Source: Caldifarciminota bacterium (GTDB lineage: Bacteria > Hydrothermota > Tepidihabitantia > SM23-42). From it: 33,021 nt of DNA. Location of the stretch: contig CP070834.1 in assembly GCA_020341755.1 (NCBI GenBank), positions 1,366,257-1,399,277 of the forward strand, written 5' to 3'. Shown here piece by piece: positions 3,220 through 19,574 of the stretch. Position numbers and translations under genes: made by a program. The notes below the pieces were generated by a model, which saw only the letters and a list, made by a program, of their open reading frames with translations, had not been told where the DNA came from and searched no databases. The stretch's first letter is position 1. Every line of letters starts with the position of its first letter.

Positions 3220-3247
3220 TTGACAATCCGTACGTAATACATAGAAT
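3220..3247 (+). promoter_or_regulatory. Promoter of the YedK gene, predicted leaderless
   Basis: TTGACA at 3220-3225 and TAGAAT at 3242-3247, with a 16-bp spacer. The -10 box ends 5 bases before the ATG at 3253, so transcription should begin at or within a base of the start codon. There is no room for a Shine-Dalgarno sequence. Confidence 0.7.
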
Positions 3248-3252
3248 ATTCT

Positions 3253-3951
3253 ATGTGCGGACGATTCGTACGCAAATGTTCGCTCGATGAGATCAAAGAC
3301 GAGTTCGACGTCTTTGAGATACAGTGGGCGTGGGAACCCAGTTACAATGTTGCCCCGGGGCAGGATATCGCCGGGATCATCAATGACGGAAAGAATATAC
3401 TCACGACATTCCGCTGGGGCTTGATACCGTGGTGGGCGAAAGAGGAATCGATCGGCTACAAGATGATCAATGCCCGGGCAGAGACACTCGCCGAGAAACG
3501 AAGTTTTTCCAAGGCGTTCAAAACACAACGATGTCTGATCGTTGCCGATGGATTTTACGAATGGCGCAAGGTCAGTACGAAAAAGTTTCCTATGTACATA
3601 CATCTTCGGTCGGGAAAACCGTTCGGGTTCGGCGGGCTGTACGATACCTGGAAAGCACCGGATGGTAAGAAGATAATTTCATGTACGATCATCACGACCG
3701 AACCGAACGATGTCGTACGTCCGCTCCATAACCGGATGCCGGTCATTATTCCCCGTGATGCGCGCTCGCTGTGGCTGGACAGCTCTGTAGAGGATCCCGC
3801 AGAGCTCATGCCGATCATGCAGCCATATGATTCAGGTGAAATGGAAGCATATGATGTCTCCCTGCAGGTCAACTCTCCGAAGGTTAACCGGCCTGAAAAC
3901 ATCAAGCGTATTCCGAGACCCGAGGACGTCGAACAGAATCTTTTTGAATAA
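3253..3951 (+). CDS. yedK: YedK/HMCES-type abasic-site crosslinking protein (SRAP)
   Basis: A protein of 232 residues starting MCGRF, the SRAP signature: after removal of Met the Cys2 amine and thiol form a thiazolidine with abasic sites in single-stranded DNA (established for YedK and HMCES). Other active-site residues are in place: Asn73 in NARAET, Glu103 in FYEW and His159 in HNRMPVI, close to the Asn, Glu and His of E. coli YedK. WGLIPWWA (about 55-62) is also typical. The length is normal for bacterial members. It shields abasic sites during replication. The start is fixed because Cys must be residue 2. It is transcribed from its own promoter, apparently without a leader, just downstream of a run containing another DNA-damage protein (ATL). 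Confidence 0.95.
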   Translation: MCGRFVRKCSLDEIKDEFDVFEIQWAWEPSYNVAPGQDIAGIINDGKNILTTFRWGLIPWWAKEESIGYKMINARAETLAEKRSFSKAFKTQRCLIVADGFYEWRKVSTKKFPMYIHLRSGKPFGFGGLYDTWKAPDGKKIISCTIITTEPNDVVRPLHNRMPVIIPRDARSLWLDSSVEDPAELMPIMQPYDSGEMEAYDVSLQVNSPKVNRPENIKRIPRPEDVEQNLFE

Positions 3952-4010
3952 CTGAGCAACAAGAAATACGGTATCTCAAAAATATGGCAGAGAAATATTG
4001 ATATCCATTT

Positions 4011-4092
4011 TGTCATTGCGAACCCGCCTTTTAATTTTGGGGTGTGGCAATCTCGAAGATTGCTTCGTTTCCTATAGTCGCTCGCAATGACA
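4011..4092. repeat. Palindromic extragenic repeat (82 bp)
   Basis: The element is bounded by a perfect 11-bp inverted repeat, TGTCATTGCGA (4011-4021) and TCGCAATGACA (4082-4092). Near the centre is a nested inverted repeat, GCAATCT-cga-AGATTGC (4047-4063), so transcripts could fold into a two-level hairpin. Elements of this wording (TCATTGCGA ... GCAATC ... GATTGC ... TCGCAATGA) are, from general knowledge, recurrent intergenic palindromes in many unrelated bacterial genomes, comparable to REP elements. It has no coding capacity. It may be a miniature mobile element copied by a transposase elsewhere. Confidence 0.75.
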
Positions 4093-4279
4093 GAGAATAG
4101 GTTGATTTCATTGAAGGTGTTGGGAAGTTCCTTTTGTTGCGACCGTGTTTCCATGATTCACCTGTTTTGTTATGTCATGCCTTAATTCTGCCGGGTGGCA
4201 CTTCATAGTATAACGTTTCGCCAACTAATACAGGTAAGGGTAATCGATCTTCAAAGAAAAATGCATTTTTAACATATCC

Positions 4280-4307
4280 TTGACAGTGGGCGTATTTCCA
4301 CTATGAT
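4280..4307 (+). promoter_or_regulatory. Promoter of the ACT-domain gene and probable operon
   Basis: TTGACA at 4280-4285 and TATGAT at 4302-4307, with a 16-bp spacer. The expected start near 4314 gives a leader of only about 12 bases before the ATG at 4326, with no purine-rich ribosome site. Confidence 0.65.
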
Positions 4308-4325
4308 TAGATAACAATCATCTAT

Positions 4326-4712
4326 ATGGGTCAGAGAAAAGAATTCCGCATCACTATTCCCAATGAAAAAGGTCAGATCTGGCGCCTGTGTGATGCGTTG
4401 TTTCAGCGAAAAGTCAATCTCAAAACGGTCGCGGGATTTGCTGCACATTACGGAATACTCGCTATCATAACCGACAAGGAAGACGTTACACGCGAAGTAC
4501 TGAAGGATTTGGGGCTCAAGTTCCATGAGATCGAGCTGCTTACGATAAAACTTTCCAATATGCCGGGCGAGATCGCCTACTATGCGAAAAAATTATATGA
4601 TGCAGATATAAATATCGAGGCACTGTATATGGTCGGAGAGTCGACGAGCGAAGGAGAGATCGCAATTGCGGTCAGTGATCTCGAACGCGCACTGAAGGTG
4701 TTGGGGCAGTGA
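4326..4712 (+). CDS. Tandem ACT-domain protein
   Basis: A protein of 128 residues made of two ACT-like beta-alpha-beta-beta-alpha-beta units. The first (about 5-65) opens with FRITIPNEKGQIWRLCDAL. The second (about 70-126) has the ACT core ITIKLSNMPGEIAYYAKKL followed by DINIEALYMV and EIAIAVSD. There is no attached enzyme domain. Stand-alone tandem ACT proteins usually bind amino acids or other small ligands as regulatory modules; the ligand here is unknown. The protein is cytoplasmic. It is the first gene of a likely operon: the next gene starts 42 bases downstream, and the run ends with a PurF paralogue. The start has a promoter just upstream and no ribosome site. Confidence 0.85.
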   Translation: MGQRKEFRITIPNEKGQIWRLCDALFQRKVNLKTVAGFAAHYGILAIITDKEDVTREVLKDLGLKFHEIELLTIKLSNMPGEIAYYAKKLYDADINIEALYMVGESTSEGEIAIAVSDLERALKVLGQ

Positions 4713-4754
4713 GTTTAGAAGTTATTCCGGACATACAGGGAAATCCGAATACCG

Positions 4755-5648
4755 ATGTATAAATATGCAGTTAGCGCGGTCATCGTTACTTCGATCATGG
4801 TACATTGCGGTAATGTAACCAAGGCAGATTCCGGGTCGCCCGAGATGGCAGATAAGGTGCTTGTGTTGGCCGACAGCGTCTTTGATGAACATGTGAAGGC
4901 ACTGAAAGCGCGGGTGCCGGATGATTTCACCATCTTCGTTCAAAGACCCTTTGTCGTTATCGGTAATGAAGAACCCGACAAAGTAAGGCACCGGAGCACG
5001 AGGACCGTGAAATGGGCGATCGACCTTCTCAAAAAGGATTTTTTCACGAACGACCCCGCGTACATCATTGATATCTGGTTGTTCAGGGACAAGACTTCTT
5101 ATGAAAAATACGCATGGGAGTTGTTCAATGACAAACCAGAAACACCTTTTGGCTACTATCTCGAGGAGGAGAAAGCACTGCTTATGAATATCAGTACCGG
5201 TGGAGGAACGCTGGTGCATGAAATGGTACATCCATTCATGCGTGCGAATTTCCCGGGCTGCCCGCCGTGGTTCGATGAGGGCATGGCATCACTCTATGAG
5301 CAGTGCGGCGAAAAGGGCGGTCACATCTACGGGTATACGAACTGGCGGCTCGAGGGGCTTCAGGAGGCTGCCGAAAGTGGTCGTGTTCCCTCATTCAAGA
5401 CACTCACTGCAATGAGAGCGACAAAATTCTACCTTCAGGACAAGGGTACCAATTACGCTCAGGCACGGTATCTCTGCTACTATTTACAGGAACAGGGTCT
5501 TTTGGTGAAATACTATCACGAATTCCACGAAAATGTCGATGATGATCCTACGGGATATATAACTTTGCAGAAGGTGCTCGGAGTGGAGGATATGAAGGCG
5601 TTCAAGAAGAAATGGGAAACGTTCGTGATGAAACTGAGTTTCCCGTAA
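4755..5648 (+). CDS. Putative lipoprotein zinc metallopeptidase (HExxH)
   Basis: A protein of 297 residues with a hydrophobic N-terminus and a possible lipobox ending at Cys18 (IMVHC; His before Cys is unusual, so lipidation is uncertain). Residues 155-159 read HEMVH, with a further acidic cluster FDEGMASLYE where Glu175 could be the third zinc ligand, the gluzincin arrangement HExxH...E seen in peptidase-MA-like and DUF1570-type proteins. The preceding part (about 50-150) resembles the pro-region of such proteins, with a mixed alpha/beta pattern. It is probably periplasmic or surface-anchored. The substrate is unknown. Spacing to the lipoprotein gene downstream is 13 bases, consistent with one operon. 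The ATG at 4755 has only a weak upstream site (CAGGGA), so initiation may depend on coupling. Confidence 0.75.
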   Translation: MYKYAVSAVIVTSIMVHCGNVTKADSGSPEMADKVLVLADSVFDEHVKALKARVPDDFTIFVQRPFVVIGNEEPDKVRHRSTRTVKWAIDLLKKDFFTNDPAYIIDIWLFRDKTSYEKYAWELFNDKPETPFGYYLEEEKALLMNISTGGGTLVHEMVHPFMRANFPGCPPWFDEGMASLYEQCGEKGGHIYGYTNWRLEGLQEAAESGRVPSFKTLTAMRATKFYLQDKGTNYAQARYLCYYLQEQGLLVKYYHEFHENVDDDPTGYITLQKVLGVEDMKAFKKKWETFVMKLSFP

Positions 5649-5661
5649 TTGAGAATGTGAA

Positions 5662-6633
5662 GTGAGAAAAGTACTCACGATAATCTGTGCGGCGATTGCT
5701 ACAGGGATGGTGTTTACCGGCTGTGGTAAATCGATCGAGGTGGAACTCGTTTACCCTGAAGACGGTGCTGTGGTCAGCAGTATAGTGACACTCTATGCCG
5801 AGGTGTTCAATACGGTCGCTACACGTACTGAATTTTACATTGATGATTCACTTCACTGTACCGTGCTCATAGAACCGTACGAGTGTTTGTGGAGCACGTA
5901 TGATCTTGACGACAATTCTGTTCACGAGATCTACGTGATTGCCTATGACAGGGACGTGACCATCGATACATCACCGGTGGTGCAGGTGACCGTGATGAAC
6001 GGCAGTGTGCGCTTTGCCGATGATTTCGAAATGTATTTACCGTTTGGCTATCCGTACCCGACCTGGTATAATATCTGGCACGGCATGGACACTGCATATG
6101 TGACCGACTATGTCGCTCATTCGGGTAACCAGAGTTTTAGGCTCGGCGGTTCATCCCAGTATCCGCGTGTCGATGCCGTGGACCTGGTGCTCGATGATGT
6201 GAACCTTCTCACATATGAATATTCGGTCATGGTCTCAGACAGTACAACCGGTACCCAGACCGGATTCTTTGTATTCATCAGTCCCGATCTCGGGGCGGTT
6301 GTGAACGGTGTTCAGTTCAATTTCGAAGATGGCTACATACACGTGCGGGGGGTCTACGACTATAATACCGGTCAGCCGTGGTTCCAGGATACCTGGTATA
6401 ACGTTCGCGTTGAAGTGGATTATGACAGCCTTTTCATGGCAGTGTGGTTCGACGATTCATTGATCGTCAGCGGACTCCATGCGGCATCCCGCGATACATC
6501 ATCCATTTTCATGCTCGCGACGCAGTTTGCCGGTGGTGGTATTGCGTATTATGATGATATATACATCATGTCTGGTGAGAATTTCGACGCATCGCGTCCT
6601 GTGGTGATCGATGAAAGGCAGGGAATACGATGA
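5662..6633 (+). CDS. Lipoprotein with Ig-like and jellyroll-like domains
   Basis: A protein of 323 residues from a GTG at 5662, 13 bases after the previous stop; the ATG at 5655 is immediately followed by a stop. The lipobox is FTGC with Cys21. Residues about 26-112 form an Ig-like module (VELVYPEDGAVVSSIVTLYA ... IYVIAYD), of the kind found as spacers in surface proteins. Residues about 115-310 look like a concanavalin/LamG-type jellyroll: FADDFE, HSGNQSFRLGG, WYNVRVEVDYD and IAYYDDIYI are characteristic beta-strand edges. No catalytic residues are evident, so it may be a binding or structural lipoprotein. Its stop overlaps the start of the PurF-like gene (ATGA), so the two are translationally coupled even though one product is exported and the other cytoplasmic. 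Confidence 0.8.
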   Translation: MRKVLTIICAAIATGMVFTGCGKSIEVELVYPEDGAVVSSIVTLYAEVFNTVATRTEFYIDDSLHCTVLIEPYECLWSTYDLDDNSVHEIYVIAYDRDVTIDTSPVVQVTVMNGSVRFADDFEMYLPFGYPYPTWYNIWHGMDTAYVTDYVAHSGNQSFRLGGSSQYPRVDAVDLVLDDVNLLTYEYSVMVSDSTTGTQTGFFVFISPDLGAVVNGVQFNFEDGYIHVRGVYDYNTGQPWFQDTWYNVRVEVDYDSLFMAVWFDDSLIVSGLHAASRDTSSIFMLATQFAGGGIAYYDDIYIMSGENFDASRPVVIDERQGIR

Positions 6634-8042
6634 GTGGAATAGTTGGTATTGTCTCCAAGAAAGAATGCAAGAACGATCTTTTCTACGCAACAGATTATCA
6701 CTCCCATCTCGGGACATCATACGGCGGCATCGCCGTTTTCGACGGTAAGCACTTTCAGAAAAAGATACATACCATTGCCAAGGCTCAGTTCAAGTCACGA
6801 TTCTCCGAGGATCTCGATTTCGTGCACATGCAGGGCAACCGCGGTATCGGTGTTATCAGCGACCGGGATACCCAGCCCTTGATCATGCGGTTGAAATTCG
6901 GCGAATATGCTATGTGCGGTGCAGGATTTATCGACAATCAGAATGCACTCGCTCAGGAACATATTGATAAAGGGGTCGTTTTTTCCGAGATGCCCAATGG
7001 TCAGGTGAATCAAATAGAACTGGCGGCAAAACTCATCAACCAGGGCAAGACACTCCCCGATGGTATCGAGTATCTCCATGACCGGATAGACGGATCATTC
7101 TCCCTGCTCTTACTCGGCCAGGAAGGACTGTACGCGGCACGGGACCGCTATGGGAGGAGTCCATTGGTCCTTGCCAGGAAACATGATACCCGTATCGTTG
7201 TCCTGGAGAGTTGTTCATTCAAGAATCTCGGATTTGAGATTGAACGTTTCCTGGGGCCTGGTGAGATCATCTTGCTCAACGAGGGCAAAGTGGAACAGGT
7301 GAAAAAACCGCGCTCCTTGCTGCAATTATGCACTTTTTTATATGTATATGCAGGTTTCCCCGCATCAGAATATGAAGGCAAGAACGTGGAAGAATTCCGT
7401 GAGTATTCAGGCAGGATCATTGCGCAGCGCGATAACGTTGAGATCGACCTGGTTGCCGGAGTAGCGGATTCGGGTACCGCGTATGCGCACGGGTATGCCC
7501 ACGAGTCCGGGGTGCCGGTACGCATTCCGCTCCTCAAGTATACACCGGGGTGGGCGCGCAGTTATGTACCGCCGTCCCAGGAAACAAGGGACCTGGTGGC
7601 ACTCATGAAACAGATCACTGCTGATGCATTGATAAAAGACCAGCGCATACTCATTACCGAAGACTCGATCGTGCGTGGAACCCAGCTCAAAAATTACCTG
7701 CTGGTAAAACTGTGGGATGCCGGCGCACGAGAGGTTCATGTCAGACCGGCATGCCCGGCGTTAATGTACCCGTGCAAGTTCCTGTATTCGACCCGTCAGC
7801 TGGATGAGCTCTTCGCACGGAGGATCATCAAGAACATGCACGGTAAACACATAGACGATATCACGGTGTATCTCGATCCTGATTCCAACCAGTACAAAGA
7901 GATGATCACCGAAATGGAGAAAGACCTTCATGTCACGACTCTGCGATACCAGCGCCTGGAGGACATGATGGGGGCGACCGGTTTGCCCAAAGAGAATCTG
8001 TGCACGTACTGCTGGACCGGTGAGGAACCGGAAAAAGCGTAA
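6630..8042 (+). CDS. PurF-family amidophosphoribosyltransferase paralogue with an inactive glutaminase domain
   Basis: A protein of 470 residues with the PurF order: N-terminal Ntn glutaminase-like domain (about 2-220) and phosphoribosyltransferase domain with the PRPP loop EDSIVRGT (344-351). The nucleophile Cys that should follow Met is Ser2 (MSGIVGIV). The Arg of the RYST-type motif is absent (GIGVISDRDTQP), and the HNGN-type oxyanion motif reads CGAGF. Glutamine hydrolysis is therefore very unlikely. Four cysteines (C234, C382, C458 and C461 in LCTYCWTG) match the positions that bind the [4Fe-4S] cluster in B. subtilis-type PurF. The enzyme may use ammonia, act on another ribosyl substrate, or be regulatory. 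Paralogues with an altered N-terminus (starting MGG...) occur in other FCB bacteria, from memory. The start overlaps the preceding stop, with GGCAGGGA as ribosome site. Confidence 0.85.
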   Translation: MSGIVGIVSKKECKNDLFYATDYHSHLGTSYGGIAVFDGKHFQKKIHTIAKAQFKSRFSEDLDFVHMQGNRGIGVISDRDTQPLIMRLKFGEYAMCGAGFIDNQNALAQEHIDKGVVFSEMPNGQVNQIELAAKLINQGKTLPDGIEYLHDRIDGSFSLLLLGQEGLYAARDRYGRSPLVLARKHDTRIVVLESCSFKNLGFEIERFLGPGEIILLNEGKVEQVKKPRSLLQLCTFLYVYAGFPASEYEGKNVEEFREYSGRIIAQRDNVEIDLVAGVADSGTAYAHGYAHESGVPVRIPLLKYTPGWARSYVPPSQETRDLVALMKQITADALIKDQRILITEDSIVRGTQLKNYLLVKLWDAGAREVHVRPACPALMYPCKFLYSTRQLDELFARRIIKNMHGKHIDDITVYLDPDSNQYKEMITEMEKDLHVTTLRYQRLEDMMGATGLPKENLCTYCWTGEEPEKA

Positions 8043-8074
8043 ATTATCGATTAATCACGAGTCCAAACCTACAC

Positions 8075-9745
8075 TTATTCCCAGTTATCTGACGGTGTTT
8101 TTTCTATGAGTTTTTTCTCGATGAGATATTTATAAGCAGCGATCGCTGCTTTCGCGCCTTCGCCAGCAGCGACGATGATCTGCTTCTCGGGTACATCGGT
8201 CGCATCGCCGGCGGCAAAGAAGCCCGGAATATCCGTGCTGTTGTCGCTGTGTACGGGGATCTCACCCCGTTCGTTCAGTTTGACAAGATCCCGGACCGCG
8301 TCCGTATTCGGACTCAACCCGATCTCGAGAAATACACCATCGACTTTGATGCTGGTGGTTCCTGGATCTTTAGTCGATGACAAAGAGATACCCTGCAGTT
8401 TCTCATCCCCCAGGAATTCGGATACCGACATGTTTTTATGGAAGGTAACGTTCGATGCCTTTTTTACTTCCCTGATAAGGGCATCATCCGCCGAAAACCT
8501 GTCACGGCGGTGAATGACATGGATCTCTTTGGCATACCCGACCAGATCACGTGCTGCGGTGAATGCGGAGTTACCTCCGCCCACAACGGCTACTTTTTTG
8601 TTTTTGTACAGCGGGGCATCGCATGTTGCACAGAACGCAATTCCGTGTCCGATAAATCGGTCTTCACCGGGTACGCCCAGTCGTCGGTACTCTTTACCTG
8701 TACAGAAGATAACGGAACGTGCCTTATACATTTTATCATCTTCGGTTTTCACGAAAAGCAAATCCGTATCCGTGCTGACCGTCACGACATTGGCACCGAT
8801 ACTCTCGGCGATCGGGTATGCCTCGGCGTGGAACATGAACTGTTCTTTTAATTCTTCACCACTTATCCCGGGAAGACCGAGGTAATTGTCGATCGAAGCA
8901 GTATACGCGATTTGTCCACCAATATCTTTGCTTACGAGCAGCACGTTCATCTGCTTCCGTGCTGCATAGACCGCTGCCGAGAGCGCTGCCGGACCACCTC
9001 CGACAATGATCGTATCGTAGACCGCTTTCGCCTCAGGCTTGCGGACGTGACGGTGCCCCTGCGCTTCACGGATCATGGTCTTGATTCTTTCGTATTCTTG
9101 GACGTCGACCGCCTTGAGTACTTCAAGATACACGGCTTGTACTGGTTGTGCGCCCTCAAAACTATGTTTTCCGTTGATCATGGTCTTGGGTACGCCATAG
9201 ACTTCGTATTTTTGTGATAGGTCGGGGAATTCCTCGCTCTCTATCATGTCTGCCCGTATATTCTCGTTGACCATGGCGAGTTGATGCGCAGCGTGAACCG
9301 CTTTGGGGCAGTAGGGGCAGCTTAAGGTGGTCATAACCTCGATGTGCACCGGTTTTTTTATTTCCCGTATCATCTGTTCCAGATCCAGGTGGATACCAGA
9401 AGTCCCTGTGCCGACCATGACGATCGCTTGCATGAGCGAGGTGAATTCATGTCCGGCGGTTAGACCAAAAAAACGGATATCGTAGTCCTGTTTACCGATG
9501 ATGGCTGTCGCGGGCACTTTATCGATATTGTATTCATGAGCTTTGTCCGTATGTTCTGTGCGATCATAGATCTGTAGTTTCAGGTTGTTTGATAGCGATG
9601 TTAGTTCTTCGAGCAGTTCCTGTTGTTTGCCGCAGAACTGACAGTTCTTTTTATCCATAAAAAAAATGATCTCTACATGACGTTTTAGTTTCTCGAAGAG
9701 GGGGATGACTTCTTTTTTGACCTTATCATCGATTATCTTGGCCAC
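8075..9745 (-). CDS. Protein disulfide oxidoreductase-thioredoxin reductase fusion
   Basis: A protein of 556 residues. The N-terminal part (about 1-225) contains two thioredoxin-fold units with redox motifs CQFC (35-38) and CPYC (143-146), each followed by a cis-Pro segment (VPAT, VPKT); this is the layout of archaeal-type PDO and of the AhpF N-terminus. The C-terminal part (about 242-545) is a flavoprotein of the thioredoxin reductase family: FAD site IIVGGGPAA, redox CATC (372-375), NADPH site VVGGGNSA (387-394), HRRDRFSA and FFAAGDAT. One chain can therefore pass electrons from NADPH through FAD and CATC to CPYC and CQFC. It reduces cytoplasmic disulfides or, if AhpF-like, a peroxiredoxin; no AhpC gene is visible nearby. 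The GTG start at 9745 sits 5 bases after a perfect -10 box and lacks a ribosome site. Confidence 0.92.
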   Translation of the reverse strand: MAKIIDDKVKKEVIPLFEKLKRHVEIIFFMDKKNCQFCGKQQELLEELTSLSNNLKLQIYDRTEHTDKAHEYNIDKVPATAIIGKQDYDIRFFGLTAGHEFTSLMQAIVMVGTGTSGIHLDLEQMIREIKKPVHIEVMTTLSCPYCPKAVHAAHQLAMVNENIRADMIESEEFPDLSQKYEVYGVPKTMINGKHSFEGAQPVQAVYLEVLKAVDVQEYERIKTMIREAQGHRHVRKPEAKAVYDTIIVGGGPAALSAAVYAARKQMNVLLVSKDIGGQIAYTASIDNYLGLPGISGEELKEQFMFHAEAYPIAESIGANVVTVSTDTDLLFVKTEDDKMYKARSVIFCTGKEYRRLGVPGEDRFIGHGIAFCATCDAPLYKNKKVAVVGGGNSAFTAARDLVGYAKEIHVIHRRDRFSADDALIREVKKASNVTFHKNMSVSEFLGDEKLQGISLSSTKDPGTTSIKVDGVFLEIGLSPNTDAVRDLVKLNERGEIPVHSDNSTDIPGFFAAGDATDVPEKQIIVAAGEGAKAAIAAYKYLIEKKLIEKTPSDNWE

Positions 9746-9750
9746 TTCGT

Positions 9751-9778
9751 ATTATAGTAGAGATACATGACATGTCAA
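9751..9778 (-). promoter_or_regulatory. Promoter of the PDO-TrxR gene, predicted leaderless
   Basis: On the minus strand TTGACA (9778-9773) and TATAAT (9756-9751), both perfect, are 16 bp apart. Five bases separate the -10 box from the GTG start at 9745, so the transcript should begin at the start codon itself. It is divergent from the pseudouridine synthase promoter. Confidence 0.8.
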
Positions 9779-9797
9779 CGGAAAAACCCAGGATGTC

Positions 9798-9824
9798 TTG
9801 ACGGTGTGCGAAAAAATCTATACA
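9798..9824 (+). promoter_or_regulatory. Promoter of the pseudouridine synthase gene
   Basis: TTGACG at 9798-9803 and TATACA at 9819-9824, with a 15-bp spacer. The expected start near 9831 gives 0-4 bases of leader before the ATG at 9834. An in-frame TTG at 9798 is therefore the -35 box rather than a start codon. Confidence 0.55.
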
Positions 9825-9833
9825 CTGTATGAA

Positions 9834-10619: not shown

Positions 10620-10647
10620 TTGACCAGGTATGAACAAACAGTATTAT
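10620..10647 (+). promoter_or_regulatory. Promoter of the m5C methyltransferase gene, predicted leaderless
   Basis: TTGACC at 10620-10625 and TATTAT at 10642-10647, with a 16-bp spacer. Five bases separate the -10 box from the ATG at 10653. The in-frame TTG at 10620 is the first triplet of the -35 box and not a credible start. Confidence 0.65.
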
Positions 10648-10652: not shown

Positions 10653-12035
10653 ATGAAACTAGAAAAACTTTTTTCCCGCTACAAACCGATTATCGCGGAT
10701 TATGAGAGTTTTCTCAGTATGCTGCGCAAGCCGCTTGTGCAGAGTTTTCGTATTAACACGCTCAAGGCGAGACCAGACGATATCGCCTTGCTGACAAGCG
10801 ATCTCAAGACCTGCCGGCTGCCTTTTTATGAACACGGGTTCAGACTCGAACGAAAAATGTCCCTGGGGAATCACCCGGCGCATATGCTGGGACTTCTTTA
10901 TATTCAAGAAATAGCATCTATGCTGCCAGTACTCGTACTCGATCCTAAACCCGACGAGGTAGTCCTCGATCTGTGCGCAGCTCCGGGTTCAAAGACAACC
11001 CAGATCGCCCAGGCAATGGATAACCGCGGTCTTCTGGTCGTGAACGAGGTAAATAACCGCAGGAAGCAGGGTCTGCTTCAGAACATCAAACGCTGTGGTC
11101 TGCTGAACGAAGTCGTGATCGGTCTGCGTGGTCAGCGGATCGACCGTGTGTTCCCGGATTACTTTGATCGTATCTTGATCGATGCACCGTGCAGTGCCGA
11201 GGGAACAGTACGCAAGTCAAAGGCAGTACTCTTTCACTGGGGTGTCAGGAATATCGAGCGGATGGCACGGATACAGAAAGGATTGATCGTCTCTGCATTC
11301 CGGGCGCTCCGTCCCGGCGGGGTGATGGTGTATTCCACCTGTACCATAGCGCCGGAAGAAAATGAGGCTGTCGTTGCGTACCTTCTGGAACGTTTTCCTG
11401 AAGCCGATCTCCTGCCGGTATCAATACCGGGGATAAAACTGCGACCAGGCATCACTACGTGGCAGGTGGAGAATTTTAATGAGAGAATAAAAAGATGCGC
11501 TCGAGTACTACCGCAGGACAACGATACTGCTCCCTTCTTCATCGCCAAGATATCCAAGATGGGTCTGCAGAAGAAACGCGTCGATTACCTGGGGAAGATC
11601 GTATACGAACACAGTTACGTGGTTGCCCTATCGAGGCGCTTCGGCATTGATAATGCACGCTTCCAGGAATATGCGGTTTTTCATGGTCAGGACCGGGATA
11701 CTACGTATATTGCGACACCACAGGTTTTTAGTTTCCGGGAGGTGAGGACTTCGCGCAAGGGACTGGAATTCGGTAAAATGTACGGTCAGGACATAAAGCC
11801 GGATAATGACTGCATACAGATATTCGGCAAAAACGCGAAGGAAAATATCTACGAAATGACCGGAAGTGAATTACGACGTTTTCTGAAAGGTGAGACGGTG
11901 AAACCGAGTTCCCCGCGCGATATGACCAAGGGATTTGTCGTGCTTGTATACAAGAAACTTCCCGTAGCGATCGGCAGGTATAACGGTCAGACGATCAAAT
12001 CAGCAGTAAAACGAGACCGTAGGATTCCACAGTAA
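10653..12035 (+). CDS. NSUN/RsmF-like RNA cytosine-C5 methyltransferase
   Basis: A protein of 460 residues from the ATG at 10653. The N-terminal region (about 25-100) includes SFRINTLKA and YIQEIASMLP, typical of the RsmB/RsmF/NSUN family. The SAM domain has VLDLCAAPGSKTTQIA (104-119), DAPCSAEG (177-184, with the product-release Cys180) and YSTCT with the nucleophile Cys230, then PEENEAVV. The C-terminal region (about 310-460) fits the RsmF-type extension carrying a PUA-like RNA-binding domain. It methylates C5 of cytosine in rRNA or tRNA; RsmF modifies 16S C1407, but the target here is not provable. It starts 75 bases after the pseudouridine synthase, from its own leaderless promoter. Confidence 0.9.
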   Translation: MKLEKLFSRYKPIIADYESFLSMLRKPLVQSFRINTLKARPDDIALLTSDLKTCRLPFYEHGFRLERKMSLGNHPAHMLGLLYIQEIASMLPVLVLDPKPDEVVLDLCAAPGSKTTQIAQAMDNRGLLVVNEVNNRRKQGLLQNIKRCGLLNEVVIGLRGQRIDRVFPDYFDRILIDAPCSAEGTVRKSKAVLFHWGVRNIERMARIQKGLIVSAFRALRPGGVMVYSTCTIAPEENEAVVAYLLERFPEADLLPVSIPGIKLRPGITTWQVENFNERIKRCARVLPQDNDTAPFFIAKISKMGLQKKRVDYLGKIVYEHSYVVALSRRFGIDNARFQEYAVFHGQDRDTTYIATPQVFSFREVRTSRKGLEFGKMYGQDIKPDNDCIQIFGKNAKENIYEMTGSELRRFLKGETVKPSSPRDMTKGFVVLVYKKLPVAIGRYNGQTIKSAVKRDRRIPQ

Positions 12036-12212: not shown

Positions 12213-12240
12213 TTGACTATTACGAGAAATTCACTATACT
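12213..12240 (+). promoter_or_regulatory. Promoter of the EF-G gene, predicted leaderless
   Basis: TTGACT at 12213-12218 and TATACT at 12235-12240, with a 16-bp spacer. Six bases lie between the -10 box and the ATG at 12247, so the transcript should start on the initiation codon. No ribosome site is present. Confidence 0.75.
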
Positions 12241-12246: not shown

Positions 12247-14298
12247 ATGATTGATTTGAAGACCATCAGGAATATAGGTCTTGCCGCGCATATCGATGCT
12301 GGCAAGACAACGACAACCGAGCGTATCCTGTATTATACCGGAAAGATCCGTCGTATGGGTGAGGTAGACGAAGGTTCGGCGACCATGGACTGGATGCAGC
12401 AGGAGCGGGAACGTGGTATCACCATCACCTCGGCGGCGACCACATCGCATTGGAAAAAATACCGCGTCAACATCATCGATACGCCCGGACATGTCGATTT
12501 CACGGTCGAGGTTGAGCGGTCGATGAAAGTCCTCGATGGTCTCATAGCGATTTTCTGCGCCGTGGGCGGGGTTCAACCCCAGTCAGAAACGGTGTGGCAT
12601 CAGGCAGACAAGTATCGCGTACCGCGGATTGCATTCGTCAATAAAATGGACCGTATCGGCGCCGATTTCTTCCGGGTGATCAAGCAAATGCACGATAAGC
12701 TCTCACTCGTGCCGATAATACTCCAGGTACCCATTGTCGATCACGGTGGATTCCACGGCGTTATCGATCTTGTTGAAAACAAAGCGTACTTTTGGGACGA
12801 GGAGACGCTCGGAGCGAAATACCGGGTGGAGGAGATCCCGGATGATTACCGGGAACAGGCAGATGAGTACCGAACAAAGATGTTCGAGGCGATCGCTGAA
12901 CACGATGAGGAGATATTTGAGAATTATTTTGCCCGCAAGCCGATTCCGATAGACAGGATCAAAAAGATCATACGGAGAGAAACGATCACGTTGAATCTTG
13001 TACCCGTACTGTGCGGGTCTGCCTTGAAGAACAAGGGAGTGCAGACGCTGCTCGATGCGGTCATCGATTATCTTCCGTCACCGGTCGAGGTCCCGCCCGT
13101 ATATGCACTGAACCCGAAGACGGGTAAGATGGAAGAACGCAAACCATCGATCGATCAGCCGTTCTCGGCATTTCTCTTCAAGGCACAAACAGATCCACAC
13201 ATGGGACTGTTGAATTATATCCGGGTGTACTCGGGTGAGGTGAAAGCCGGGGACAAGATACTCGTGTACCCACCGGAAAGATTGGATCGTGTCAGTAAGC
13301 TGCTGCTCATGCACGCCAACAAACGTGAGGAACGCCCGTCACTATCGGTCGGTGAGATCGGCGTGATAACGGGACTGCGTGAATGCAAAACAGGCTATAC
13401 CCTGTGTTCCCGGAAAAATCCGGTTACGTTCGAGGCGATGAAATTTCCCGAGCCGGTCATCTACGTGTCATTAGAACCCAAGACGAAAATGGATGATGTG
13501 AAACTCGACAAGACATTGAAACAGATACAGATCGAAGATCCGACGTTCAAGGTCAGGACAGATGAAGAAACGTCCCAGCGGATCATATCGGGGATGGGTG
13601 AGTTGCATCTTGAGATCATTGTCGATCGTTTGAAGCGGGAGTTTGGTGTAGCATGTAATGTTGGAAGACCTCAGGTATCGTACAGGGAAACAGTGACCGC
13701 AGAGGCGCGCGCCGAAGGTCGATTTATACGGCAGACCGGAGGTAAAGGGCAATACGGCGTGGTCCGGCTCAGTCTTACGCCAGGAGAACGTGGTGATGGA
13801 GTCGTCATCGAGAACCGTCTCAAAGAAGGCACCATTCCGCGGCAGTTCGTCCCCTCGATCGAAAAAGGCATACGCGAACAGGCAGAGGTCGGGGTATACT
13901 GGGGGTACCCCGTCATAGATATCAAGGTGGCCATACTCGATGGGGCTTTTCATCCGATCGATTCGTCGGAGATGTCTTTCAAGGTAGCGGCACAGATGGC
14001 ATTCCGGGATGCTTTCATGAAGGGAGAACCGGTCCTCCTGGAGCCGATCATGTCTCTGGAGATCATTGTTCCGGAATCATATATGGGCGATGTCATCAAC
14101 GATCTCAATGCCCGCAAGGGTAAGATCATCGAGATCGAGGCGAACAAGCGTGAGAAAATAATCACTGCAAGCCTTGCCTTGGAAAAGTCGTTCGGCTACG
14201 CAACGGACCTGCGTTCAGTAACACAGGGACACGGGATTCACACGATGCAATTTTCGCATTACGCACCCAAAGAACAGAAGCCCGAAGTTCAAAGTTAA
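12247..14298 (+). CDS. fusA: Elongation factor G
   Basis: A protein of 683 residues, the ribosomal translocation GTPase. G motifs are all intact: AHIDAGKT (14-21), RGITIT (56-61), DTPGH (78-82), NKMD (132-135) and GSALKNKGV. Domain II (DQPFSAFLFKAQTD ... YIRVYSGEV), domain III (GMGELHLEIIVDRLKREF), domain IV (RQTGGKGQYG and HPIDSSEMSF, the tip loops that enter the A site) and domain V (PIMSLEIIVPESYMGDVINDLNARKG) follow in order. The length is normal. The gene is not beside rpsL, rpsG or tuf, the usual str-operon partners. It may therefore be either the only copy, relocated, or a second EF-G paralogue; the intact motifs favour an active translocase. The start lies 6 bases after a -10 box with no ribosome site. 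Confidence 0.95.
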   Translation: MIDLKTIRNIGLAAHIDAGKTTTTERILYYTGKIRRMGEVDEGSATMDWMQQERERGITITSAATTSHWKKYRVNIIDTPGHVDFTVEVERSMKVLDGLIAIFCAVGGVQPQSETVWHQADKYRVPRIAFVNKMDRIGADFFRVIKQMHDKLSLVPIILQVPIVDHGGFHGVIDLVENKAYFWDEETLGAKYRVEEIPDDYREQADEYRTKMFEAIAEHDEEIFENYFARKPIPIDRIKKIIRRETITLNLVPVLCGSALKNKGVQTLLDAVIDYLPSPVEVPPVYALNPKTGKMEERKPSIDQPFSAFLFKAQTDPHMGLLNYIRVYSGEVKAGDKILVYPPERLDRVSKLLLMHANKREERPSLSVGEIGVITGLRECKTGYTLCSRKNPVTFEAMKFPEPVIYVSLEPKTKMDDVKLDKTLKQIQIEDPTFKVRTDEETSQRIISGMGELHLEIIVDRLKREFGVACNVGRPQVSYRETVTAEARAEGRFIRQTGGKGQYGVVRLSLTPGERGDGVVIENRLKEGTIPRQFVPSIEKGIREQAEVGVYWGYPVIDIKVAILDGAFHPIDSSEMSFKVAAQMAFRDAFMKGEPVLLEPIMSLEIIVPESYMGDVINDLNARKGKIIEIEANKREKIITASLALEKSFGYATDLRSVTQGHGIHTMQFSHYAPKEQKPEVQS

Positions 14299-14350
14299 CG
14301 ATCGCTGCAGGCTCTGATATTCTGTAAGTCATGGGTCAAGGAGAGGATGT

Positions 14351-15226
14351 ATGAAAAAGGAATGTTTATTCATCGATGTTTTCACCGATATCCCGTACAC
14401 CGGCAATCAGCTTGCGGTCTTTCCTGACGTTGTGCAGCTTACTCAGGATAACATGCAGGCGCTTGCCAACGAGATAAATTATTCGGAGACCACTTTCATT
14501 GTTGAAAGCCAGGACCCGTCGTACGATTTTCAAGTGAGGATCTTCAATCCGAAGAACGAGATGCCGTTTGCCGGTCATCCCATACTCGGTACCGCGTTTG
14601 CCATAATACATATCCTGAAACGATGGGATAGCACGCGCGGGCTTCTGCGGTTAAAAACACAGGTCGGGGTCATACCGATCGAAATTGTCGATGGGGTTTT
14701 GTGGATGCAGCAGAATCAACCGGAATTCTACGGTGACCATACAGATAAGGAAAAGCCGGCGAACTTCATTGGTTTATCGCCCGACGATCTCATGGATGAG
14801 CTTCCCGTGGAAGAGGTTTCAACCGGTAACCGCATGATGATAATTCCCGTTAAAACACTCGATGCGGTTCGGCGCGCTGAGGGGAACGTTCTGCATCTGA
14901 AGCAGTTTTTCGGTGAACGAAATGCCGGACCGTACCTGTTCACGTTCGAGACCACGCGACCAGAAGCAAAGGTGCACACGCGCTTCTTTGCACCGCATCT
15001 GGGTATCATTGAGGATGCGGCGACCGGTTCGGCAGCAGGGCCCTTGACCGCATACTTACTCAAACATAGCGTATTCGGCGAGCGTTTCGAGATTATCAAT
15101 GAACAGGGTGTTGAGATGAATCGACCTTCACAGATACATATGAAGGGCGAGAAACACGATGATCAGTACGTGGTCAAGATCGGCGGCAGGTGTGTCTTTG
15201 TCGGGACGGGTGAATTTACAGTTTAG
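14351..15226 (+). CDS. PhzF-family isomerase-like protein
   Basis: A protein of 291 residues of the PhzF / diaminopimelate-epimerase-like fold. N-terminal features are FTDIPYTGNQLAVF, YSETTF with the likely catalytic Glu46, and RIFNPKNEMPFAGHPILGTA (the GHPxxG motif). The second half mirrors it with ARFFAPHLG-type wording (TRFFAPHLGIIEDAATGSAAGPL). Only the phenazine-pathway PhzF has an assigned reaction; no phenazine genes are visible here, so the substrate is unknown. It is cytoplasmic. The start has a good AAGGAGAGG site, unlike the leaderless genes nearby. It lies 52 bases after EF-G and converges with the Rsm22-like gene, with 46 bases between the stops. Confidence 0.9.
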   Translation: MKKECLFIDVFTDIPYTGNQLAVFPDVVQLTQDNMQALANEINYSETTFIVESQDPSYDFQVRIFNPKNEMPFAGHPILGTAFAIIHILKRWDSTRGLLRLKTQVGVIPIEIVDGVLWMQQNQPEFYGDHTDKEKPANFIGLSPDDLMDELPVEEVSTGNRMMIIPVKTLDAVRRAEGNVLHLKQFFGERNAGPYLFTFETTRPEAKVHTRFFAPHLGIIEDAATGSAAGPLTAYLLKHSVFGERFEIINEQGVEMNRPSQIHMKGEKHDDQYVVKIGGRCVFVGTGEFTV

Positions 15227-15272
15227 CATACGTATAATGTAGCAATTATTTGTATTTGCGATCGGTGAGGGT

Positions 15273-16412
15273 TCACCAGGGCATTGAAGGTTTGAGGGAG
15301 ACGCGGCTCGATGGTTCGATCCTCCATGTGTCCTGACGCTTCCTTTTAACATCATCGAGGGTAATGATGTCACCCCGCGCGATGCGGTCAAAATCGTCAT
15401 TCTGTAAATTCCTTGATGTGTCCAGGCGTACAAGCTCGACCCGCCCTGTGGGGGTACATAAATAACACCTCTTCCTGCCCTTCTCTTTCAGCAGATTGCT
15501 GACCACCAGAAAGTCCGACCTGCTTCTTTCCCGATACTTTCGTTTCGACAGTACGAGATACGAGAACTTCAAGCGATCGATTTCCCGGTGCAAGGTCTTG
15601 TTGAGCATCTGTATGTAGTGGGGTGGTTGCCATACGCGTGATTGATGACACCATTCTTTACCCTTTCGCACGGCAGCGAGTGGACAGGTGCGTTCATGCA
15701 AGCATGGGAGGAGTATATGGTACGTATGTTCCTGCAGGAGTGAATCCCTCAAGCGCATGAGCCTGCGGGACAAGATGCGGGACGCAGGTTCGATGATGAC
15801 TACGATGCCGTCATCGGTTGCGTACCGGAAGATCTGCCCAATATATTTCTTTGGTATAACCTCGTCCTGTTCGATTTCTGCCAGTGCGTTGGCAAGAATG
15901 ACTACATCGAATTTTCTCCGTGTCTTCAGCAGGAGTGCCCCGTCTAGTTGATGCCGGCGCAATGTGACACGGAGCCGACTGTCGTCTTTTTTGACAAGGA
16001 ATGCGATCTGTCGGCATGCCTTCAGCACAACAGCCGACCGGTCGATGCCGGTTAGTGAGATTCTATGATTTTTTTTCAGCGCATAGTATGTTCCGAACAT
16101 CCCTGCTCCGTGCCCGCAGCCAATATCGAGTACGTGTAGTGTTTTCTTACCTGTAAAACAGAGGGGAAATCGATTCTGTAACCACCGGGTAATCATCCAT
16201 GATTTCATAAGATTTATAGGGAAATGATATGCGAGGTAGGCATCACTGTATTTGTCTTTTCCAGATTTTGTGTGTATGAATTCGTGCGTTAATCTGTGTA
16301 ACTGGGCGCTCAAAGACCTGATTCTTCGCACATCAAAAACTTTTCGGGCATGGTCATGTAATCCAAGTAGTCTGAGCAACATGGATTCGATCTCGGGCAG
16401 CAGCCGTATCAT
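15273..16412 (-). CDS. Rsm22/METTL17-like methyltransferase-fold protein with Fe-S-type cysteines
   Basis: A protein of 379 residues. After a helical N-terminus comes a Rossmann methyltransferase core with motif I LDIGCGHGAG (95-104), GIDRS (122-126) and a motif IV-like VVILANALAEI. The C-terminal half carries the Rsm22 hallmarks: LPCLHERTCPL, EWCH, SYLVLSK and a terminal RKRCYLCTPTGRVELVRLD segment. Cysteines C237, C243, C255 and C316 (or C319) have the spacing reported to bind a [4Fe-4S] cluster in METTL17/Rsm22. Those proteins assist mitochondrial small-subunit assembly (family knowledge); the bacterial role is presumably on the small ribosomal subunit. The start is 15 bases after the stop of the Rad50-like gene, so it is probably cotranscribed with the nuclease pair. 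Confidence 0.82.
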   Translation of the reverse strand: MIRLLPEIESMLLRLLGLHDHARKVFDVRRIRSLSAQLHRLTHEFIHTKSGKDKYSDAYLAYHFPINLMKSWMITRWLQNRFPLCFTGKKTLHVLDIGCGHGAGMFGTYYALKKNHRISLTGIDRSAVVLKACRQIAFLVKKDDSRLRVTLRRHQLDGALLLKTRRKFDVVILANALAEIEQDEVIPKKYIGQIFRYATDDGIVVIIEPASRILSRRLMRLRDSLLQEHTYHILLPCLHERTCPLAAVRKGKEWCHQSRVWQPPHYIQMLNKTLHREIDRLKFSYLVLSKRKYRERSRSDFLVVSNLLKEKGRKRCYLCTPTGRVELVRLDTSRNLQNDDFDRIARGDIITLDDVKRKRQDTWRIEPSSRVSLKPSMPW

Positions 16413-16427
16413 TGTGGATATTGCTGA

Positions 16428-18509
16428 TTATATGGGTACGATCTCGGCACCTGCTTCTTTGAGTATGTCCCGCGTGTGGTCATCCGAGGTGAAATAGATG
16501 ATCTGATTGCCCTCGTCTACGTATTTTTTCAACAACTTCACCAATCTCGAACGGCGGTTCCAATCTGCAAAGATGAATGCATCGTCAAGGATCAGGAAGC
16601 TTCCCCGTTCATATAAACGTTTCAGTGCTGCAATCCTGAAACAGAGCAGGAGTTGATCACGGGCGCCACTGCTCAGATCGTTGACATTATAGACATGATT
16701 GGAATTGTCGGTTGCGAGGAAGTCTTGTTTTTTTATTTCAACCTTAATGTACCGTTCGGATACAAAATGGAAATAATCACTAAGGCTGTCATCGCCTGTG
16801 ATGATTGTTTCCAGCAGTTTGTCGTATTCGATGCTCATCTGTTTCAAGATATCCCTTGCGGCATGTGCCGCTTTTTTCTCCAGTTCATAATTGTTCAGGG
16901 CATTGGTCAAGGTGTTGTATTCGATGAAGGCATCGTATTCAGATTCTACTCCGAACTTAGCTTTGTACGTTTCTTTGAAGATCGTGATATCACTCTTCAG
17001 TTTATCGATTTTTTGCTGGACTTGTTTGATTTGACTTCGTGTGGGCTCTTCTTCGGTGATATCTATGTCATCCTCCGGCGGTTCTTGATGAAGCTTTTCG
17101 ATCATCCGCTTCCACTTTCGATCGTCCTTTTCATGGAGCATGCCAGCCAGTTTACCGTGCACTATGCTCATATTATTTTCCAGTTTTCGTTTTTCATCGA
17201 TTTTCTGCTTCAGATCAGCAATCTCGGCGCAGCCGGTTTTATCTCTGATCTCGGAAAGTTTCTGATCGCTCCTGGACTGTTCTATTGCCTGTGTGAGATG
17301 CTCTGTGAGTTTTGATTTTTCCTGCAGCAGGGTCTCTTTCCTGATCGTCTCGTCACGCATTGTTTCGATGCGCTCGGCAACTTCTTCCAGGCTGTTTACA
17401 TCCGGAAAAACTTTCTGAGCTTTCCTTAGCGCTGTGTCTTTTTCGGTCACGAGTGTCAACATTACATGTCGTCTATACAGGGTGAAGATGAAGAATATAC
17501 AGCTGAAACCGAAGAGCACGAATGCCGGGACCTTAAGAAAACCGGACACGAAGGAGAAGGCGACGAGTAACGCGGCAGCCACACATATGATCCCGGGATA
17601 CACCAGGCTCGGAATGCGGACTTCATCTTCGGCACGCATGATGCAAGCATGAAGACCTTCTGTCTGGACACGTTTTTCCTGTTTTCTGAGTGTGCCGATC
17701 TCCTCTTTCAGTTCGGACATTTCCCGCTGTGTGGTCTCTAGTTTGTCCTTATCGCGCTGTTGTGATTTTCGAGCCGCTTCGCATTCCTGCCATGTATTAA
17801 GATACTCGTATTTGTAACGTTCATATACCTGCAGCTGATTGGACAGGTCAGTGTACTCGTCGTACAATGATATGAGCTGTTTGTATGTGCGATAATTTTT
17901 CATGTGTTCGATGGAATCGAGTCGGTGCTGGTTTTCTTGGTGGTATTCCACGAGTCTGGTCAATTCAGTTTCCTGTTTTTCTATTCCATCCATTTCGGTG
18001 ATATACTTCTTCAATTGTTCCTTGCGCAGTGTTTCCTGTTCCACGAGATGCTGTTTTTTTTCTTTCCACTCACCGCGTCGGTCTGTGAGTCCTACGGCGT
18101 TGAATATTTTCGCGTCGATCTTGGTAAAGGATATGTCTTGATCCATGTGACTCAATAATGCCTTCAAACTGTCCCAGAAATGCTCTCCGCCCGATCGATC
18201 AAAGATAGCGGACTCTGCTGCCTCTATGTACATGATATGTGCAAGGTCGCCGATGGGAAGTTGTGCGATTTTTTTTCTGCTCGGAAGTGTGATCCGTCTG
18301 TCATCGGCAAGTATCTCGATCACAACATCGGCCGGTTTGCCATAGCGAAGCCCTTGCGGATTCCTGCGGAATATGATATAAGCCATGGCTTCGACGATCG
18401 TAGTTTTACCGGATTCGTTCTGACCGAAAATACAAACAAAATGACCGGGCTTGAGCACAAATTTCTTGATCGGTCCATAGTCGTGTATAGCGATCCTGTC
18501 TATCTTCAT
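16428..18509 (-). CDS. YhaN/Rad50-like ATPase with two central membrane segments
   Basis: A protein of 693 residues with a split ABC/SMC-type ATPase. The N-terminal lobe has Walker A GQNESGKT (29-36). The C-terminal lobe has the signature LSSGARDQLLL, Walker B FLILDDAF and a final TSDDH switch. Charged heptad-rich coiled coils (about 145-285 and 345-570) connect them. At the tip of the coil, where Rad50 has its CxxC zinc hook, there are instead two hydrophobic spans (about 302-322 and 327-345) with a few polar residues between, which should be membrane-inserted. This is the architecture of B. subtilis YhaN. It pairs with the Mre11-like gene upstream (4-base ATGA overlap). It presumably acts with that nuclease on DNA ends or hairpins at the membrane; the function is inferred from homology. 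Confidence 0.88.
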   Translation of the reverse strand: MKIDRIAIHDYGPIKKFVLKPGHFVCIFGQNESGKTTIVEAMAYIIFRRNPQGLRYGKPADVVIEILADDRRITLPSRKKIAQLPIGDLAHIMYIEAAESAIFDRSGGEHFWDSLKALLSHMDQDISFTKIDAKIFNAVGLTDRRGEWKEKKQHLVEQETLRKEQLKKYITEMDGIEKQETELTRLVEYHQENQHRLDSIEHMKNYRTYKQLISLYDEYTDLSNQLQVYERYKYEYLNTWQECEAARKSQQRDKDKLETTQREMSELKEEIGTLRKQEKRVQTEGLHACIMRAEDEVRIPSLVYPGIICVAAALLVAFSFVSGFLKVPAFVLFGFSCIFFIFTLYRRHVMLTLVTEKDTALRKAQKVFPDVNSLEEVAERIETMRDETIRKETLLQEKSKLTEHLTQAIEQSRSDQKLSEIRDKTGCAEIADLKQKIDEKRKLENNMSIVHGKLAGMLHEKDDRKWKRMIEKLHQEPPEDDIDITEEEPTRSQIKQVQQKIDKLKSDITIFKETYKAKFGVESEYDAFIEYNTLTNALNNYELEKKAAHAARDILKQMSIEYDKLLETIITGDDSLSDYFHFVSERYIKVEIKKQDFLATDNSNHVYNVNDLSSGARDQLLLCFRIAALKRLYERGSFLILDDAFIFADWNRRSRLVKLLKKYVDEGNQIIYFTSDDHTRDILKEAGAEIVPI

Positions 18510-19540
18510 TTTAAAATATCGTTGAATATAGGAAACATCAGTTCGAGCAGTTTGATCCTTGTGGTCTCATCGAGATGAGCCGATTTGTCGACGAAATCCC
18601 GGACAAGCTTGTGTTCGATAATGACGTCCCAGGGCTGCGGTTCGATTTCGATTCTACGTTGAACGAATTTCTGCATAAGGGGTTCGATCATCTTTGAGGC
18701 GCGCTCTTTGAACGTCCTGTCCTTTTCAGCGGTATATCCACGGACAGCAATGTACGGCAGGGAGGTGTGTGTGTCGAGTCCGGCGAGAAAGGTCTCAATC
18801 TCCTGGAGGGTACGTTCTTCCACGCCCGGAAATATATAAAATATTTTGCGCACCCAGTAAGGAGCACTGTCTATCAAAACTCGTTCGATCTGGAGGGTGT
18901 TCTTGTCGATGGTTACAAGGGAGCACGCGCGCGGCTCGGTACACTTGGTATCGAGCGCGCTCGGTGAACCGGGATACACGACATGGGTGTCGCCGTATGT
19001 AGCTGCAATATACCGTGCATGAAGATGACCAAGGGCAACATACCGGGCGCGATTTTCCAGATGTCCGGGCAAAATAGGCATATAGCGGGTCTCAATATCA
19101 TCGAGCATGGAAAAAATGAAGGATTGATCGTAGAGCGTGCCGTGGGCGATGAGGATATCCGGCTGTTCATGCAGGTCCTGGAGACAGGTATTGAATCTGG
19201 TCTCTGCATAGGGCACGCCGCATATGTGAATGCCTTCATGCTCTGAGATTTCAAATGGCGTACTAACCAGTTGAACGACATTATTTCCGTAATCATACTC
19301 ACGGCTGTACGATTTTCTGTCATGATTACCCGGTATGACAAAGAATCGAAAATCCGTACGGTTTGCCATGGCAGCTACCTGTGATCTCAATAAACTGGCG
19401 TCCTTGTCTGAGTTGAAGAGATCTCCGGCGACAATGATCCCGTTCACTCCCAGGTCTTCTGCCTTGGTGATGAGCCAGCCGAAAGCGTCTAGATCCTTCC
19501 CCGCTTCGAGGTGTAGATCGGCAGTGTGAAGGTATTTCAT
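18506..19540 (-). CDS. YhaO/Mre11-like metallophosphoesterase nuclease
   Basis: A protein of 344 residues with the calcineurin-type dimetal signatures in order: ADLHL (7-11), AGDLF (38-42), GNHD (71-74), AHG (132-134) and GHLH (171-174). It ends with a C-terminal region (about 245-344) that likely contacts its ATPase partner. Shorter than E. coli SbcD (400 residues), similar to YhaO. In complex with the Rad50-like protein it should process double-strand breaks or DNA hairpins using Mn2+. The stop overlaps the start of the Rad50-like gene. The ATG lies 6 bases after a perfect TATAAT and has no ribosome site. The gene is divergent from the M14 peptidase gene, with the two -35 boxes only 3 bases apart, so the two transcripts may compete. 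Confidence 0.9.
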   Translation of the reverse strand: MKYLHTADLHLEAGKDLDAFGWLITKAEDLGVNGIIVAGDLFNSDKDASLLRSQVAAMANRTDFRFFVIPGNHDRKSYSREYDYGNNVVQLVSTPFEISEHEGIHICGVPYAETRFNTCLQDLHEQPDILIAHGTLYDQSFIFSMLDDIETRYMPILPGHLENRARYVALGHLHARYIAATYGDTHVVYPGSPSALDTKCTEPRACSLVTIDKNTLQIERVLIDSAPYWVRKIFYIFPGVEERTLQEIETFLAGLDTHTSLPYIAVRGYTAEKDRTFKERASKMIEPLMQKFVQRRIEIEPQPWDVIIEHKLVRDFVDKSAHLDETTRIKLLELMFPIFNDILK

Positions 19541-19546
19541 CGCTCT

Positions 19547-19574
19547 ATTATAGACGGTTTTTGGGTAGAATCAA
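19547..19574 (-). promoter_or_regulatory. Promoter of the Mre11-like operon, predicted leaderless
   Basis: On the minus strand TTGATT (19574-19569) and TATAAT (19552-19547), with a 16-bp spacer. Six bases lie between the -10 box and the ATG at 19540, so translation would start at the mRNA 5' end. Confidence 0.7.

Follow-up and report, generated by a model that had tools for sequence, protein, structure and literature searches.

Promoters of one stereotyped layout placed at start codons predict leaderless genes in a probable WOR-3 bacterium

The window, the whole stretch of 33,021 nucleotides analysed here (G000:C1:1366257-1399277), lies in a 2.38-Mb genome designated G000. Five of its genes are preceded by a whole sigma-70-type promoter of one layout, in which a -35-like hexamer, TTGA(C/T)N, is followed by exactly 16 bp, a -10 box, 5 or 6 bases and the start codon. 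The gene for an SRAP (YedK) protein (Pfam SRAP; plus strand, 3253..3951), predicted to be leaderless, has its promoter at 3220..3247, with TTGACA at 3220-3225 and TAGAAT at 3242-3247, 5 bases before ATG 3253. A minus-strand gene with a thioredoxin and a pyridine nucleotide-disulphide oxidoreductase domain by Pfam (PDO-TrxR, 8075..9745) starts with GTG at 9745, and its promoter at 9751..9778 on the same strand consists of TTGACA at 9773-9778 and TATAAT at 9751-9756, again 5 bases from the codon. The plus-strand gene at 10653..12035 was assigned by Pfam to the RsmB/F-type rRNA m5C methyltransferases; the promoter upstream of this RsmF-type gene (10620..10647, plus strand) has TTGACC at 10620-10625 and TATTAT at 10642-10647, 5 bases before ATG 10653. 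Elongation factor G (EF-G; Pfam; plus strand, 12247..14298) is encoded by one of the genome's two full-length EF-G-like genes and has a promoter at 12213..12240, composed of TTGACT at 12213-12218 and TATACT at 12235-12240, 6 bases before ATG 12247. Finally, a calcineurin-like (Mre11-like) phosphoesterase gene by Pfam on the minus strand (18506..19540), which shares 4 bases with the gene that follows it on this strand (16428-18509), is preceded on that strand by a promoter at 19547..19574, with TTGATT at 19569-19574 and TATAAT at 19547-19552, 6 bases before ATG 19540. The five -10 boxes were confirmed at the positions claimed in the initial annotation, with gaps, defined as the bases between the end of the -10 box and the start codon, of 5, 5, 5, 6 and 6. 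Its statement that no Shine-Dalgarno (SD) sequence is present also holds, since an SD core was found in none of the five genes in the 18 bases upstream of the start. The -35 hexamers were unmentioned in that annotation, yet its end coordinates match two of them.

Related promoters lie at other distances from plus-strand genes of the window. A weaker case precedes a pseudouridine synthase gene (9798..9826; TTGACG at 9798-9803, 17 bp, TACACT at 9821-9826, 7 bases, ATG 9834). Short-leader promoters were found at 2668..2695 (TTGACA, 16 bp, TACAAT, 12 bases, ATG 2708) and at 4280..4307 (TTGACA, 16 bp, TATGAT, 18 bases, ATG 4326). A promoter with a leader provides the contrast, a perfect TTGACA, 16 bp and TATAAT at 1173..1200, separated by 28 bases containing AAGGAG from ATG 1229. 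The genes at 2708, 4326 and 9834 had all been described as near-leaderless; the description suits 9834 (gap 7, predicted leader of about 0-1 nt) but not 2708 (gap 12, about 5-6 nt) or 4326 (gap 18, about 11-12 nt). Most secreted-protein genes had been said to carry AAGGAGG sites instead, and this was true of part of them: ten N-termini in the window were inspected by eye, seven were signal-peptide-like, and four of these seven genes have the site (1229, 19710, 22025 and 25213) but 4755, 5662 and 29055 do not. AAGGAG also precedes a PhzF-like gene at 14351, the N-terminus of which is not signal-peptide-like. Between 3951 and 4326, the bases at about 4012-4092 have by eye the look of a dispersed repeat with complementary ends, TGTCATTGCGA ... 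TCGCAATGACA. An Rfam search of the window gave no match.

The EF-G proteins of the closest named relatives are 74-76% identical to that of G000 and come from MAGs titled candidate division WOR-3 or Candidatus Stahlbacteria, and from these relatives we infer the phylum name WOR-3 used for G000. The single contig looks scaffolded. The sole 16S rRNA match in the genome (L001, G000:C1:947239-947414) is a partial gene, model 9-546, at a locus with 200 N, and Ns are present in the hundreds in most of the stretches sampled.

The genome was sampled as 20 stretches of 20 kb (400 kb) plus the window, 433 kb in total, in which 355 genes, window included, were called by a hexamer model blind to the bases upstream of starts. 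A TATAAT-like box was defined by at most one mismatch and the form TA...T, with the expectation computed from gaps 12-45, and a TTGACA-like box by at most one mismatch and a spacer of 15-18. The genome-wide search for -10 boxes suggested in the initial annotation, run on this sample, revealed a peak at gap 5-6, as its claim predicts. With the window excluded, 24 of 336 called genes had a TATAAT-like box at gap 5-6 compared with 5.2 expected (p=1.1e-8). Boxes of the -10 type reached 4.8% at gap 5 and 3.4% at gap 6 before 354 genes, against 0.0 and 0.4% before internal ATGs (n=2,153), and -35-like boxes peaked at gaps 27 and 28 before called starts when compared with the same 2,153 controls. This positional signal bears on the possibility that the arrangement arose by chance, because AT-rich upstream regions often give TATAAT-like boxes, and the good ones were picked. 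The five genes had indeed been chosen by eye from about 22 in the window, but the probability obtained outside the window, together with an at least twofold excess of gap 5-6 over gap 10-11 in 26 of 26 genomes of seven families (see below), makes chance the least credible of the explanations considered here, with next to nothing left in its favour.

A three-way mixture fitted to 354 genes placed 13.1% in a -10-adjacent class, 36.8% in an SD class and 50.1% in neither; the half of the calls with neither signal likely comprises wrong starts and genes with weak operon-internal signals. TTGACA-like -35 boxes, which were unused in the EM fit, were found in 31 of 43 -10-adjacent genes, 5 of 128 SD genes and 5 of 183 unassigned genes. 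When the EM mixture was fitted with a different training threshold, on 359 called genes, 37 were -10-adjacent and 30 of these had the -35 box. In the sample, 199 sites match TTGACA/TATAAT at 10 or more of 12 positions. A called start on the same strand follows within 200 bp for 106 of these, 26 of them at gap 5-6, and for the other 93 it does not, so the consensus alone is no proof of a promoter. A spacer of 16 was present in 71 of 87 strong-promoter genes of G000, leaderless or not, and was the commonest in all six genomes checked (G000, G003, G005, G008, G018 and G033). E. coli promoters prefer a spacer of 17.

By a strict joint call, 29 of 359 genes were classed as leaderless (three at gap 8) and 74 as SD. 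The window methyltransferase falls below this threshold, and the strict call is therefore conservative. The 87 G000 genes with a strong promoter within 100 bp were distributed over the gaps as follows: one at 0-4, 26 at 5-6, 11 at 7-12, 12 at 13-19 and 37 at 20-100. Predicted leaderless genes make up about 8-13% of those called, and about 30% of those that have a clear promoter no more than 100 bp away. At 8-13%, and with SD genes outnumbering them, leaderless initiation as a main mode for intracellular genes, as first proposed, is too strong a statement; only where genes have a promoter of their own that can be recognised does it count as a major mode. With E 0.001 as the cutoff, all strict leaderless calls except L019:5609 (28 of 29) have a match to a Pfam family. 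Among them are EF-G, ribosomal protein S20, SmpB, a NusG-domain protein and two tRNA synthetases, and also a DNA polymerase III delta'-like protein, IMPDH, YgbB (IspF) and regulators resembling ArsR and MarR. A small number are assigned by family to the envelope or membrane (SLBB/polysaccharide export, LEA_2, DPBB_1 and PAP2).

The division into secreted and intracellular genes was recovered in G000, where signal-like N-termini, called by a simple ad hoc rule, were found in 3 of 29 leaderless and 28 of 74 SD genes (p=0.008). It was not significant in four relatives (6 of 36 versus 46 of 149, p=0.10). Leaderless and SD genes are told apart better by whether the gene heads a transcription unit than by secretion. 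Among the strict leaderless calls of five genomes (n=65), 54 were first and none lay within 25 bp of an upstream same-strand gene, compared with 132 and 60 of the SD genes (p=4e-8); calls lying 25-60 bp from such a gene or at the edge of a stretch (11 leaderless, 31 SD) were excluded from this test. The looser EM assignment put 3 of 43 leaderless genes within 25 bp of an upstream same-strand gene, and these three are probably false calls. In six genomes, SD sequences accompanied none of 71 promoters at gap 5-6, an absence that is partly forced because SD and -10 would share the same bases, and 62 of 136 promoters at gap 20-100.

On the ribosome side, the anti-SD tail GATCACCTCCTTT (CCTCC) ends five of five full-length 16S genes of relatives, which alone were used for this reading since the 16S gene of G000 is partial. 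G000 carries infC and a frame of 532 aa that has five S1 domains and probably encodes ribosomal protein S1. The SD peak in upstream regions indicates that SD initiation is in use, and the two modes thus coexist.

The geometry was followed in orthologs from the related families f1 and f2. For EF-G, 17 genomes were considered, two of which (G007 and G009) were left out as being without a close ortholog. All 15 genes (G000 included) have a TATACT or TATAAT box, at gap 6 in ten, gap 7 in two and gap 8 in three, and a -35-like hexamer, weak in one case, lies 16-17 bp above the box, while the spacer bases differ. A near-fixed distance between promoter and codon despite differing spacers is expected under selection on a leaderless start, and a leadered promoter needs no such distance. 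In one f3 and two f4 genomes, no box was seen by eye and an upstream frame seems to end just before the EF-G gene. The methyltransferase has a -10 box at gap 5-6 in 12 of 13 f1/f2 genes (G000 included), the exception being G010 with a poor box at gap 7; this set covers 15 genomes, of which G001 and G007 had a distant match only and were left unscored. No such box was found at the aligned start of the f3 methyltransferase gene. All four full-length PDO-TrxR genes found (G000 included) have a -10 box, at gaps 5, 5, 5 and 8. The geometry of the Mre11-like gene was present in G000 and G001 only among the 12 genes shown (one of 11 orthologs), and eight of the other ten orthologs have, by eye, a similar coding-looking tail up to the ATG, as if operon-internal. 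For YedK, gap 5-6 was found in G000 and in none of four orthologs, and G002 has a box at gap 9. The patterns of EF-G and the methyltransferase on the one hand, and of the Mre11-like gene and YedK on the other, indicate a mode that is stable for some genes and switching for others.

The spread across the phylum was studied in 120 genomes with the pattern TTGA-N18-TATNNT-N5/6-ATG and an N10/11 control, and a genome was counted as enriched at an at least twofold excess and p<0.05/120. The control is conservative, as gap 10-11 may hold real short-leader promoters. G000 had 115 pattern matches versus 35 for the control. Within its sample, 17 of 25 matches at gap 5-6 and 3 of 7 at gap 10-11 fell on a called or nearby alternative start. 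Enrichment was observed in 26 of 26 genomes of families f1-f5, f7 and f9, in one of four in f8 and in none of ten in f6, all of the same class, and in six of 80 genomes outside the class. For relatives with gene-called samples, fixed-motif counts replaced free EM fits. Free EM fits on small samples were dropped because the motif drifted (to gaTaaT in G005 and to ttTtat in G033). Boxes at gap 5-6 numbered 13 versus 2.8 expected in G003, 13 versus 2.5 in G008 and 7 versus 1.1 in G018; the excess was weak in G005 (6 versus 1.9, p=0.02) and not significant in G033 of f6 (4 versus 1.8, p=0.13). Strong promoters in G033 are spread over gaps 5-12, with five at 5-6 and 11 at 7-12. Judged by these gaps, leaders in f6 may be very short (about 0-6 nt) rather than missing, perhaps as a variant of the same habit. 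G071 (f29) had no box at gap 5-6 versus 0.6 expected in a sample of 51 genes and 63 kb. This AT-rich genome (34% G+C in the sample) from outside the class gave 118 pattern matches versus 20 despite the zero boxes at gap 5-6. In a further scan of 32 genomes, corresponding to 32 of 80 EF-G relative loci, raw counts without the gap 10-11 control were 92-164 in six of the seven WOR-3- or Stahlbacteria-titled genomes and 20 in the seventh, compared with 42 in one Latescibacterota and 0-23 in the other 24, among them Mycobacterium with a single match; the Mycobacterium count means that this TTGA-containing pattern does not detect leaderless genes in general.

At its usual distance downstream of a -10 box, transcription would start on the first base (A or G) of the start codon. 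We consider it highly probable that these are ordinary primary-sigma promoters placed so that transcription would start on the start codon, giving leaderless mRNAs and leaderless initiation; both the transcription start point and the initiation pathway we infer from the DNA. The leaderless reading of the initial annotation gains good support from the -10 and -35 peaks, the conserved distance in EF-G and the methyltransferase, the absence of SD sequences and the absence of strict calls at closely spaced operon-internal genes. With a -35, a 16-bp spacer and a -10, the primary-sigma promoter would make the A or G of the start codon the first transcribed base, and the resulting mRNA without a 5' leader would be bound at its 5'-terminal start codon by a 70S ribosome or a 30S-IF2-fMet-tRNA complex. 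In other systems, 70S and IF2-assisted complexes are established routes of leaderless initiation. The same promoter further upstream would yield a leadered mRNA, often one using an SD sequence. Leaderless genes would then head transcription units, and closely spaced operon-internal genes would rely on other signals.

Two further explanations accept the boxes as real signals. The boxes could be secondary or internal promoters, the main mRNAs being longer, started upstream and translated by means of an unrecognised leader element. Some genes could be co-transcribed in this manner, such as that at 3253, which begins 56 bp after a same-strand gene. However, an incidental internal promoter is not required to keep the near-fixed promoter-codon distance of the EF-G and methyltransferase orthologs or to produce a genome-wide peak, and by our own gene calls the upstream intergenic space is 211 bp for EF-G, 58 bp for PDO-TrxR and 226 bp for the Mre11-like gene, the last two behind divergent neighbours. 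We regard this explanation as improbable. Less probable again, and to be given very little weight, is the proposal that the AT-rich box acts in translation, as is the case in SD-poor Bacteroidetes, and is not a -10 box. The box does occupy the position of a ribosome binding site, and AT-rich sites are among those reported for the FCB group (PMC9581028), but it is accompanied by a -35 at a 16-bp spacer, and the same promoter also occurs well upstream of the SD gene at 1229.

Leaderless genes of this kind are already known in Actinobacteria and Deinococcus-Thermus. Zheng et al. 2011 (PMC3160421) described TA-led (leaderless) genes in 207 of 953 bacterial genomes, with a TA-like -10 signal, its first T about 12 bp upstream of the start, that was likewise read as leaderless. 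As in G000, leaderless genes were mixed with SD genes there, and operon-distal genes need an SD sequence. WOR-3 is absent from the groups listed in that survey for the 207 genomes, one of which is unclassified. According to the survey translation genes are less often leaderless, whereas the translation genes named above are among the strict calls of G000; a strong -35 at 16 bp also joins the box in G000. In Deinococcus-Thermus, Zhong et al. 2025 (PMC12340547) reported a -10 motif adjacent to about 30% of ORFs, with expression tests, and also scanned species across the bacterial domain in a supplementary figure. The box described there lies 6-7 bp before the ORF, is kept in orthologs and occurs alongside RBS-led genes, all of which resembles the present case. 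It reads TANNNT, most often TACACT, in contrast to the TATAAT with a TTGAC-type -35 at 8-13% of called genes in G000. A leaderless transcription class of bacterial genomes is defined in GeneMarkS-2 (Lomsadze et al. 2018), as cited in PMC9581028. A full-text search of non-subscription papers found no literature pairing "leaderless" with WOR-3 or Stahlbacteria, and the lineage appears to be new for leaderless genes. The features of its own are the stereotyped full promoter and the frequent switching of mode.

Leaderless initiation is a known minority way of starting protein synthesis, and its known mechanism is unchanged by the WOR-3 case. Gene finders that expect SD sequences can misplace starts in such genomes. 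Because orthologs in one family switch mode, apparently in step with their position in operons, close relatives offer a test of the proposed co-evolution between operons and the way translation is initiated. A broader hypothesis, to which we give roughly even chances, is that leaderless initiation is old and lineage-wide in one WOR-3 class, and that the spacing between the start codon and a single stereotyped promoter (TTGAC, 16 bp, TATAAT) would act as the switch between leaderless and SD initiation. Genes would then convert on joining or leaving operons, as for the Mre11-like gene and EF-G, or by a move of the promoter, as for YedK and the short-leader genes, and WOR-3 would join Actinobacteria and Deinococcus-Thermus as another deep lineage in which core translation genes are leaderless. 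The present results extend the prediction of widespread leaderless mRNA use to a further bacterial lineage, an uncultured one, in which the mRNAs concerned include those for EF-G, S20, a NusG-like protein, SmpB and tRNA synthetases.
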